From Burkholderia cepacia ATCC 25416 (lineage in GTDB: Bacteria > Pseudomonadota > Gammaproteobacteria > Burkholderiales > Burkholderiaceae): 64,000 nt of DNA. The notes beneath the pieces are model-generated. The model was not told the DNA's origin. It did no database searches and was given only the letters and a program-made list of their open reading frames with translations. The stretch lies in contig NZ_CP012981.1 of assembly GCF_001411495.1 (NCBI RefSeq), positions 1,550,001 through 1,614,000 of the forward strand, given 5' to 3'. The position numbers and the translations under genes are program-made. Shown here one piece after another: positions 38,753 to 40,222 of this stretch. Within the stretch, counting starts at the first letter, position 1. Each line of letters begins with the position of its first letter.

Positions 38753-39826
38753 TCAGTTCCCGCTGCCGCGCGTGACGCGGCGTGCCTTCACCGATTCCGC
38801 GAGGCCTTCGAGCACCTTCACGCTGTCGTCCCACGCGATGCACGCGTCGGTGATGCTCTGGCCGTAGGTCAGTTCGCAGCCTTCCTTCAGGTCCTGGCGC
38901 CCCTCGACGAGATGCGACTCGATCATCACGCCGACGATGCGGGCGTCACCGGCCGCGATCTGGCGGCCGATGTCGGCACAGACGGGGATCTGGTTCTCGT
39001 GCTTCTTCGAGCTGTTCGCGTGGCTCGCGTCGATCATCAGGCGTGCGGCGAGGCCGGCCTTGCCGATGTCCGCGCACGCGGCGTTCACGCTTTCCGCGTC
39101 GTAGTTGGGCGTCTTGCCGCCGCGCAGGATCACGTGGCAATCCTCGTTGCCGGCCGTCGACACGATCGCCGAATGGCCGCCCTTCGTCACCGACAGGAAA
39201 TGGTGTGGCTGCGATGCGGCTTTGATCGCGTCGACCGCGATCTTCACGTTGCCGTCGGTGCCGTTCTTGAAGCCGACCGGGCACGACAGCCCCGACGCGA
39301 GCTCGCGGTGCACTTGCGATTCGGTCGTGCGCGCGCCGATCGCGCCCCACGAGATCAGGTCGGCGATGTACTGCGGGCTGATCATGTCGAGGTATTCGGT
39401 CGCGGCCGGCAGGCCCATCTCGTTGATCTGGAGCAGCAGCTCGCGCGCGGTGCGCAGCCCTTCGTTGATCTTGAAGCTGTTGTCGAGGTGCGGATCGTTG
39501 ATGAGCCCCTTCCAGCCGACCGTCGTGCGCGGCTTCTCGAAGTACACGCGCATCACGATTTCCAGCTCGCCCTTGAAGCGCTCGCGCTCCTTCACGAGCC
39601 GCCCCGCGTACTCGATCGCCGCCTTCGTGTCATGGATCGAGCACGGCCCGATCACCACGATCAGCCGGTCGTCCATCCCGTGCAGGATGCGGTGCATCGA
39701 CTGGCGCGAGTTGTAGATCAGCTCGGACGCGGCTTCGGAGCACGCGAATTCGCGGATCAGGTGGGCGGGCGGCGTCAGTTCCTTGAGTTCGCGGATGCGG
39801 ACGTCGTCGGTGTTGTGCGGGGGCAT
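38753..39826 (-). CDS. aroG: 3-deoxy-7-phosphoheptulonate (DAHP) synthase, class I
   Basis: A 357-residue enzyme condensing phosphoenolpyruvate and erythrose 4-phosphate, the first step of the shikimate pathway. Class I signatures are VVIGPCSIHDTKAA, MRVYFEKPRTTVGWKG, GARTTESQVHRELASGLSCPVGFKNGT, and IDASHANSSKK. It is the E. coli AroG/F/H type, which is normally feedback-inhibited by one aromatic amino acid; which one is not readable here. The 5' leader of almost 290 nt contains an aromatic-rich leader peptide and an intrinsic terminator (listed separately), indicating transcription attenuation. Confidence 0.97.
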   Translation of the reverse strand: MPPHNTDDVRIRELKELTPPAHLIREFACSEAASELIYNSRQSMHRILHGMDDRLIVVIGPCSIHDTKAAIEYAGRLVKERERFKGELEIVMRVYFEKPRTTVGWKGLINDPHLDNSFKINEGLRTARELLLQINEMGLPAATEYLDMISPQYIADLISWGAIGARTTESQVHRELASGLSCPVGFKNGTDGNVKIAVDAIKAASQPHHFLSVTKGGHSAIVSTAGNEDCHVILRGGKTPNYDAESVNAACADIGKAGLAARLMIDASHANSSKKHENQIPVCADIGRQIAAGDARIVGVMIESHLVEGRQDLKEGCELTYGQSITDACIAWDDSVKVLEGLAESVKARRVTRGSGN

Positions 39827-39952: not shown

Positions 39953-39983
39953 CGAAAAAAAACCGCCGGGTTCGCCGGCGGTT
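39953..39983 (-). terminator. Intrinsic terminator inside the aroG leader (attenuator)
   Basis: On the minus strand a 9-bp stem AACCGCCGG/CCGGCGGTT (39975-39983 with 39961-39969, 5-nt loop) runs into eight T. It lies 127 nt upstream of the aroG ATG and downstream of the leader peptide stop, so it would cut the transcript before aroG. Its 5' arm can instead pair with 40031-40039 (antiterminator). Confidence 0.9.
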
Positions 39984-40079
39984 TTTTCGGGAATTTCGGT
40001 TGCGCTTTACGCGCCATCAACCCTCTCGATCCGCCAGCGGTCTGAGATGCCAAAAAAAGTAAAAGTAAAACTTGGCGGA
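39974..40079 (-). promoter_or_regulatory. aroG transcription attenuator with three competing RNA pairings
   Basis: Segment 1 (40073-40079, UCCGCCA) can pair with segment 2 (40030-40036, UGGCGGA) over 7 perfect base pairs. Segment 2 (40031-40039) can instead pair with segment 3, the 5' arm of the terminator (39973-39981), over 9 bp including one G-U. Segment 3 otherwise pairs with segment 4 as the terminator. Segment 1 lies just before the aromatic codons of the leader peptide (40050-40070), so a ribosome stalled there would cover it, freeing segment 2 for the antiterminator. The pairings are seen in sequence; regulation is inferred by analogy with trp and phe leaders. Confidence 0.8.
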
Positions 40080-40082
40080 CAT
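40017..40082 (-). CDS. aroG leader peptide rich in Phe, Tyr and Trp
   Basis: A 21-codon ORF starting MSAK. Residues 5-11 are FYFYFFW (codons TTT TAC TTT TAC TTT TTT TGG), then HLRPLADREG and a TGA stop at 40017. Seven aromatic residues in a row are far above chance. It begins about 31 nt after the predicted transcription start and ends 33 nt before the terminator stem. The Shine-Dalgarno is weak. The peptide itself is probably non-functional; translation speed through the aromatic codons would report the supply of charged tRNA-Phe, tRNA-Tyr and tRNA-Trp. Confidence 0.85.
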   Translation of the reverse strand: MSAKFYFYFFWHLRPLADREG

Positions 40083-40119
40083 GACGGAGATTCGGTTCGT
40101 CAAAAAAGTTGATTCGGAA

Positions 40120-40148
40120 TTTATACCCCGTCGCCGGGCGGCTGGCAA
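40120..40148 (-). promoter_or_regulatory. aroGp: Sigma-70 promoter of the aroG leader transcript
   Basis: On the minus strand TTGCCA (40143-40148, 5 of 6 matches) and TATAAA (40120-40125, 5 of 6) are separated by exactly 17 bp. Transcription would start near 40113, 31 nt before the leader peptide ATG. The promoter lies just downstream of the tldD terminator, so aroG is an independent unit. Confidence 0.8.
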
Positions 40149-40161
40149 CCGGGGAGCGTCG

Positions 40162-40210
40162 AAAATGCGGACATTCCGCGCATTTTCTTCAAAATGCGCG
40201 GAATGTCTGC
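40162..40210 (-). terminator. Long-stem terminator after tldD
   Basis: A 20-bp stem (40167-40186 with 40191-40210) has one mismatch and a 4-nt loop, followed on the minus strand by ATTTTC. It begins 13 bp past the tldD stop and isolates the yhdP-nitrilase-tldD operon from aroG. Confidence 0.85.
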
Positions 40211-40222
40211 GCCGCGATGCGG

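Follow-up and report, generated by a model that had tools for sequence, protein, structure and literature searches.

The aroG gene of Burkholderia cepacia ATCC 25416 is very probably controlled by a classical ribosome-mediated transcription attenuator, as judged from its upstream region and from the corresponding regions of related bacteria. On the minus strand of the window (the whole 64,000-nucleotide stretch of DNA that was analyzed), we found the end of tldD, a strong hairpin, a promoter, a leader open reading frame (ORF), a terminator, and aroG, in that order (Table 1). The promoter matches 10 of 12 consensus bases, the predicted 5' untranslated region of the leader is 31 nt long, and the leader ORF in the window has no Shine-Dalgarno sequence. 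The terminator stem, of 7 bp plus two A-T pairs, amounts to 9 bp (13 with further A-U pairs), is followed by eight T's at 39962 to 39955, and lies 128 nt from aroG. The promoter, the 21-codon ORF, the terminator, and the pairing segments had been named in an earlier reading made from the letters alone (the sequence-only reading); all of them exist, with coordinates right to within two bases, and both pairings that it had claimed, 7 bp between segments 1 and 2 and 9 bp with one G-U between segments 2 and 3, can be read in the sequence. Its terminator, placed at 39953 to 39983, keeps the 9-bp stem and the eight T's, but the T run ends at 39955 and not at 39953. An automatic scan of the window listed neither this promoter nor this terminator, we assume because TATAAA lacks the final T that the scan required and because the A-T pairs extend into the T tract.

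TABLE 1 Positions of the aroG leader and its neighbors in the window
Feature	Position	Strand	Description
tldD stop	40223	-	TldD by NF008006
Sigma-70-type promoter	40120..40148	-	TTGCCA 40148-40143, 17-bp spacer, TATAAA 40125-40120
Predicted transcription start	~40113	-	From promoter position
Leader peptide ORF MSAKFYFYFFWHLRPLADREG	40017..40082	-	21 codons plus stop; ATG 40082-40080, TGA 40019-40017
Sensor codons 5-11	40050..40070	-	TTT TAC TTT TAC TTT TTT TGG = FYFYFFW
Segment 1, TCCGCCA	40073..40079	-	7 bp with 40036-40030; can sequester segment 2
Segment 2, CGCTGGCGG	40031..40039	-	5' side of antiterminator; 9 bp with segment 3, one G-U
Segment 3, CCGCCGGCG	39973..39981	-	Terminator 5' arm and antiterminator 3' side
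Intrinsic terminator	39955..39983	-	CCGCCGG 39981-39975 / CCGGCGG 39969-39963, 5-nt loop, T run
aroG, class I DAHP synthase, controlled gene	38753..39826	-	Family profiles and structure match

The hairpin between tldD and the aroG promoter has 17 bp (window positions 40156 to 40222; region, -36.3 kcal/mol). It sets aroG apart from tldD in the window and probably is the tldD terminator. AroG scored above the cut-off for NF006723 and TIGR00034, also matched DAHP_synth_1, and matched the E. coli Phe-regulated enzyme 1gg1 with an E value of 2.6e-156. The residue aligned with Ser211 of E. coli AroG, the site that separates Phe-type from Tyr-type enzymes, is Ser, so that a Phe-inhibited enzyme is likely to stand under the aromatic-sensing leader. 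Three further DAHP synthase genes of the same genome (C2, C1, and C3, that is, L002, L003, and L004; 54 to 61% identical) have no such leader, and the 400 nt upstream of these paralogs hold no short ORF with more than three aromatic residues in eight; one of four isozymes would therefore be under this control.

The attenuator would work as follows. RNA polymerase would start near 40113, and a ribosome would begin on the leader. With charged Phe- and Tyr-tRNA (and here Trp-tRNA) plentiful, the ribosome would pass FYFYFFW and cover segment 2, segment 3 would then pair with segment 4 to form the terminator, and the RNA would end near 39955. With aromatic charged tRNA scarce, the ribosome would halt at codons 5 to 11 and leave segment 2 free to pair with segment 3 once the latter is made, so that the terminator arm would be held and the polymerase would enter aroG. 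Comparison of sequences suggests that the leader lets aroG be transcribed mainly under shortage of Phe, Tyr, or Trp. The elements, their linkage to aroG, the conservation of the codons, the co-variation of the arms, and the geometry under an assumed ribosome footprint are read from sequence; we infer the start and end of the transcript, the translation of the leader, the response to starvation, and a kinetic decision between the pairings.

To model the ribosome, in the window only, we removed the RNA up to its front, assumed to lie 14 nt from the P site. Among the codons tried, the 2:3 pairing formed with the A site at codon 12 or earlier (P of ~1) and did not form with the A site at codon 14 or later; since the last aromatic codon is codon 11, each aromatic codon tried would be a permissive stall site. 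The calculated energies were -19.3 kcal/mol for the terminator hairpin, -31.2 kcal/mol for the antiterminator region, and -12.3 kcal/mol for the protector region. At equilibrium, the terminator wins in the complete RNA even with a stalled ribosome (P of 0.956 to 1.0), and the antiterminator would therefore have to act as a kinetic trap. Thus, the earlier claim that a stalled ribosome frees segment 2 holds under the assumed footprint, but the claim that it prevents termination does not hold at equilibrium. In the unfinished RNA with no ribosome on it, 2:3 is favored over 1:2 (P of 0.999). The distance from the end of segment 2 to the stop codon is ~20 nt in xanthomonad leaders, and masking of segment 2 by a ribosome at the stop codon is less certain there.

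An orthologue of aroG was present in 61 of 61 Burkholderia genomes searched, in every case preceded by the leader and its terminator. The leader consensus of these 61 genomes is MSAK[FL]YFYF[FY]W[HY]LRPLADRE[GE]. The exact motif CTGGCGG occurs in 59 of the 61 leaders, as does TCCGCCA under a rule that looked within 40 nt of the start of the ORF; for one or both of the two leaders in which TCCGCCA was missed, that start had been placed too far upstream. Among the best 80 of 591 named contigs, ranked by AroG similarity, one automatic rule found leader and terminator in 45, to which an eroded (L016) and a diverged (L037) leader add two. Among these 80, the same rule found no leader with terminator at aroG in Enterobacterales and Vibrionales or at most loci of Rhodocyclaceae and Methylotenera.

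A covariance model (R1) built on 46 aligned leaders (alignment A1) extended this distribution. At an E value of 1e-5, R1 matched 115 of 150 Burkholderiaceae genomes, 57 of 250 Burkholderiales genomes, 5 of 274 genomes of the GTDB class, and 25 of 99 genomes of a xanthomonad family; at 1e-4, it matched 49 of 398 genomes of the phylum and 12 of 121 genomes of an alphaproteobacterial order. These genome sets overlap. The matches span Burkholderiaceae, Oxalobacteraceae, Alcaligenaceae, xanthomonads, and some alphaproteobacteria, the family or order names of some of the genomes being taken from likeness to named loci. In its own genome, R1 gave one strong match (E value of 6e-23); the next (0.004) covers the terminator part alone, and most of the further weak matches are to the terminator end of R1. 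We viewed the surroundings of the best-scoring matches of each search (up to 30 per search; n = 109) and found 108 of the 109 directly before aroG and the remaining one before tyrS. In the first set of 101 loci (to which the own genome contributed its full-length match only), all 101 had an AroG gene, 62 to 100% identical, directly downstream on the same strand at a distance of 17 to 179 nt, with the terminator at a median of 49 nt before aroG; the second set of 8 loci comprised 7 with AroG and one, the weakest, with tyrS.

The tyrS match (L278:1501-1670; E value of 1e-5) lies before a second tyrS (TIGR00234) in a genome whose other tyrS is 51% alike. Its leader reads MIKTAATFVYFYYVTSIPAAA and is apparently leaderless, and its terminator is GCCGCC/GGCGGC. 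No similar leader was seen at the 29 loci inspected out of 61 other tyrS matches from the same alphaproteobacterial order (flanks of 1,500 nt assumed; three shorter).

The codons of the leader appear to be under selection. We counted changes in 33 distinct Burkholderiaceae leaders fitting one register, with indel variants left out. Codons 5 to 10 showed 34 synonymous and 3 nonsynonymous cells (one of the three a change from Phe to Tyr), where ~11% synonymous would be expected under random single changes; because the rows are related, this count is not a probability. Within Burkholderiaceae, the aromatic run whose conservation the sequence-only reading had proposed to check is therefore kept by synonymous change at these codons. 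Codons 13 and 15 to 20 each keep one codon in 30 to 33 of the 33 rows, synonymous sites included, and codon 14 varies freely. Codon 11 is Trp in 30 of the 33 leaders and has been lost in three.

For a wider sample, we took 242 upstream regions (some places fetched twice), found a leader in 211 and a leader with terminator in 207, and dereplicated the leaders to 68 that were less than 90% alike. Phe and Tyr codons occur in all 68, and Trp codons occur in 39. The earlier proposal that the F, Y, and W codons sense the whole aromatic pool therefore does not hold in general, Trp being optional. These counts leave considerable room, if somewhat less than an even chance, for the same switch to report Phe and Tyr only, or Phe only, with the Trp codons incidental. 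In the accessible text of PMC11802643, Tyr availability is without effect on the Corynebacterium glutamicum aroR leader, which contains Phe-Tyr-Phe, and this favors a Phe-only switch. Pointing the other way are the retention of the Trp codon in 30 of the 33 distinct Burkholderiaceae leaders and the model, in which, under the assumed geometry, a ribosome stalled at the Trp codon would still free segment 2.

The competing helices are kept across the 68 leaders. The 2:3 duplex score was 20.09 for each leader's own pair of segments and 18.66 for swapped pairs, with 0 of 20,000 permutations as high, and shuffled segments reached 13.09. In an alignment of the 68 rows (A2), which was fitted to the terminator stem, 2:3 had 24 cells changed on both sides, versus 11.1 in shuffles (0 of 500 as high), and a covariation score of 0.112 versus 0.079 (1 of 500 as high); 80.3% of the 2:3 cells were paired, and the register beat all slid registers on both paired cells and score. 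The terminator pairing (3:4) had 39 such cells versus 11.6 (0 of 500 as high) and 95.8% of cells paired. The measures least inflated by relatedness were unexceptional: pairs changed on both sides numbered 4 versus 3.5 for 2:3 (273 of 500 shuffles as high) and 3 versus 2.4 for 3:4 (215 of 500), and further pair types numbered 13 versus 10.8 (35 of 500) and 8 versus 6.6 (58 of 500), respectively. There is little variation in the core pairs, and few positions therefore carry the covariation; at four of the nine pairs of 2:3, 18 to 47 of the 68 rows are unpaired. The most telling cases of pairing are two leaders outside A2 (L257 and L261), in which segment 2 is AGCGGT, the terminator arms are CCGCTA and TAGCGG, and the 2:3 pairing is kept.

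The check proposed in the sequence-only reading, covariation of all three stems, thus came out above shuffles for 2:3 and 3:4, but 1:2 is mainly a feature of Burkholderiaceae. The 1:2 protector hairpin has 7 to 8 bp in Burkholderia and close kin, and inside the ORF it beats shuffles (p < 0.1) in 8 of 10 Burkholderiaceae leaders (p of 0.00 to 0.01 in these eight; not in L013 and L202) and in 7 of 58 others. Overall, 15 of the 68 leaders reach p < 0.1, with ~7 expected. Outside Burkholderiaceae, 1:2 pairing is about what chance gives, and with 7 of 58 leaders there at p < 0.1 we rejected it as a universal part.

A hairpin flanking segment 2, pyrimidine-rich before it and purine-rich after it, was tried as a substitute protector and rejected (own pairs, 11.13; swapped, 10.82; 2,492 of 20,000 permutations as high); RNAalifold gave no such hairpin for all 68 rows and weak hairpins in single families. 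The purine-rich stretch after segment 2 is itself conserved (A2 columns 70 to 80; window positions ~40030 to 40020) and reads TCGAGAGGG here, GGAGGAAGG in xanthomonads, and TGGAGAAGCGG in Oxalobacteraceae; no pairing partner was found for it.

Taken together, the linkage to aroG at 108 of 109 matches, the synonymous constraint, the fit of each leader's own 2:3 pair, and the geometry of the model support the attenuator that the sequence-only reading had proposed. These same results bear on its rivals. It is very unlikely that the terminator mainly makes a small RNA (~155 nt) or a peptide acting in trans and that aroG control is secondary. Such a case exists in Sinorhizobium meliloti, where both rnTrpL, the RNA produced by termination in the trp leader, and the leader peptide have activity in trans, according to the portion of PMC7298713 available; but the tie to aroG at 108 of the 109 best-scoring matches would be needless for a trans-acting RNA, and the alternative pairing inside the leader is kept. 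Slightly less probable again is a nascent arrest peptide, in which FYFYFFW in the exit tunnel would stall the ribosome on binding an aromatic compound and not through tRNA shortage. The aromatic run and its flanking residues are indeed well conserved within Burkholderia, but conserved side chains would be expected of an arrest peptide, whereas from family to family the aromatics vary in order and number (SFYWYYF, HFFFFFYF, and NYFWYFSY) and the residues downstream change frame. The GGCGG core is found in one leader frame in 50 of the 68 rows and in each of the two others in 5, and 8 rows lack it, so it is not the peptide past the aromatic run that is kept. The leader matched no Pfam or NCBIfam family at an E value of 0.1.

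Chance has also to be considered. Only one of 352 ATG ORFs of 10 to 45 amino acids on both strands of the window has at least five aromatics in eight residues, and it is the leader; five block-shuffled windows contained no short ORF with at least six in eight. None of 200 shuffles folded as well as the 161-nt leader RNA (z of -3.33). Six successive Phe or Tyr codons (TWY x6) occur at two places in the 8.6-Mb genome, the second an all-Phe pyrimidine run, versus three places for the reversed control pattern, so the bare run proves little. The comparative data, by our reading, are strong evidence for the leader, and they exclude an aromatic ORF arisen by chance beside a terminator that acts constitutively on some incidental transcript: lone terminators are common, the weak genome matches of R1 mostly cover its terminator end, and the six-codon run is no rarer than its control, but against this stand the presence of both leader and terminator in all 61 Burkholderia genomes, the synonymous constraint, the own-pair fit, and the linkage to aroG at 108 of 109 best-scoring matches.

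Loss of the leader in close relatives that keep aroG had been named in the sequence-only reading as counting against it, and we found such loss at seven Burkholderiaceae loci with small genomes. R1 had no match in 35 Burkholderiaceae genomes, of which we searched 20 for AroG; 15 of the 20 had an AroG-like gene, at 18 places. At five of these places (L256 to L259 and L261), R1 had overlooked a leader that has diverged. At seven (L253 to L255, L260, and L262 to L264; AroG 67 to 80% identical), the leader is absent, a tldD-like gene ends 32 to 94 nt before the AroG match, and the genomes measure 1.7 to 2.8 Mb. At the other six (L265 to L270; AroG ~50% identical), no leader was seen. Within the loci inspected, leader loss occurs in reduced lineages, and we read it as secondary. 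In the locus labelled Candidatus Burkholderia humilis (L016:1317-1459), the leader is eroded, with a frame shift after the fifth aromatic codon; segment 2 and the terminator are still present. Elsewhere, aroG in an Anaerolineae-labelled bin (L057:1300-1500) is preceded by an aromatic leader (MSRYFSFFSWYGYFAAG...) and an unrelated long hairpin, which is possibly an independent attenuator.

Many leaders outside Burkholderia may lack a 5' untranslated region. The best promoter score was 9 or more for 23 of 67 leaders, versus 4.7% of shuffles. Among 60 leaders whose promoter score was at least 7, 29 have a -10 box ending 5 to 10 nt upstream of their ATG, versus 9% of shuffled sequences, and leaderless leader mRNAs are therefore predicted, for example, at xanthomonad and alphaproteobacterial loci. 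Leaders that do have a 5' untranslated region, that of the window among them, carry no Shine-Dalgarno sequence there. The median anti-Shine-Dalgarno energy was -1.9 in the 68 leaders and -1.8 in shuffles; 8 of the 68 reached -4 kcal/mol or lower, versus 22% of shuffles, and aroG itself did so in 24 of 35 cases.

On a quick AroG tree whose root was not inferred (105 rows: 69 with leader, 35 without, and 1 not counted), leader presence requires 8 changes, compared with 29.4 after shuffling; no fewer than three of them are forced by starred branches. One starred group holds 24 genes of alphaproteobacterial, xanthomonad, and Alcaligenaceae type, all with the leader; no star supports its placement relative to the remaining betaproteobacterial rows. 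This pattern suggests joint transfer of the gene and its leader into xanthomonads and alphaproteobacteria. We tentatively advance, at slightly less than even chances, a broader proposal: that the leader belongs to an ancient proteobacterial cis-regulatory family that moved between classes with its gene; that its core is the two competing helices, most lineages needing no segment 1; that in many the mRNA begins with its own AUG, so that one ribosome both senses Phe and Tyr (often Trp) and protects; and that attenuation by several end products at once is, in these bacteria, the ancestral control of the first step in the aromatic pathway. If the attenuator reading is right, many Betaproteobacteria, xanthomonads, and some alphaproteobacteria would use one mixed-codon attenuator at DAHP synthase, and unannotated short transcripts and a missing small ORF would gain names, a predicted signal, and a test. 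The family would also be an example of a regulatory leader travelling with its gene and would allow attenuators that have the textbook protector hairpin to be compared in nature with others that lack it.

For DAHP synthase, through which the pathway to Phe, Tyr, and Trp is entered, the usual textbook model of control is repression by TyrR and TrpR in E. coli. The trp and pheA leaders are classical attenuators, and the aroG leader would work like them. The enterobacterial Phe_leader (RF01859 in Rfam) is a Phe leader with terminator and antiterminator in the aromatic pathway and controls pheA. Membership in it was rejected, the window scoring 18.4 bits against a cut-off of 55 (E value of 1.2). 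Rfam gave nothing at the gathering cut-off over the whole window, and 20 subthreshold matches in the leader region, none at its own cut-off. Short transcripts from 82 5' untranslated regions are described for Burkholderia cenocepacia in the available part of PMC5688073. Neither "aroG" nor "deoxyheptonate" appears in the main text of PMC5688073, PMC4603805, PMC4035088, and PMC10175445. We found no description of this aroG leader in a search with subscription literature largely outside it, so that an earlier mention is possible; the predicted-attenuator website used in PMC1173090, going by the part of that paper available, may list some of these loci.

Among the closest counterparts is a C. glutamicum leader, aroR, situated before aroF, on which Neshat et al. 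are said to have reported in 2014. Like the aroG leader, aroR has an aromatic leader peptide (Phe-Tyr-Phe) before a DAHP synthase operon, and stalling raises transcription, as given in the accessible sections of PMC11802643 and PMC4046766; it differs, on a comparison by description, in belonging to an actinobacterium, in having three aromatics with no Trp mentioned there, and in responding to Phe and not to Tyr. The uORFC-13-1 motif before Acholeplasma aroF, as presented in the available text of PMC8632094, likewise combines a U run coding at least one Phe, a terminator, and DAHP synthase, but it is a different RNA motif, predicted only, from 24 sequences of one genus and the environment. Attenuation has also been proposed for proteobacterial DAHP synthase genes, for E. 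coli aroF in a paper that PMC8632094 cites for the hypothesis and for the Vibrio DAHP synthase-tyrA operon in Table 7 of PMC1173090 (predicted attenuators), in both cases for other genes and other lineages than here. The sequence-only reading had set attenuation of DAHP synthase by a mixed aromatic leader apart from E. coli repression as a different solution. The idea of attenuating DAHP synthase genes is not new, these partly available sources giving a demonstrated case in Corynebacterium and predictions for Acholeplasma, Vibrio, and E. coli. Finally, trpL/rnTrpL of S. meliloti is, like the aroG leader, a ribosome-mediated attenuator, and its leader mRNA starts with its own AUG, as predicted for many non-Burkholderia aroG leaders; by the portion of PMC7298713 at hand, it differs in sensing Trp, in controlling trpE(G), and in having products known to act in trans.
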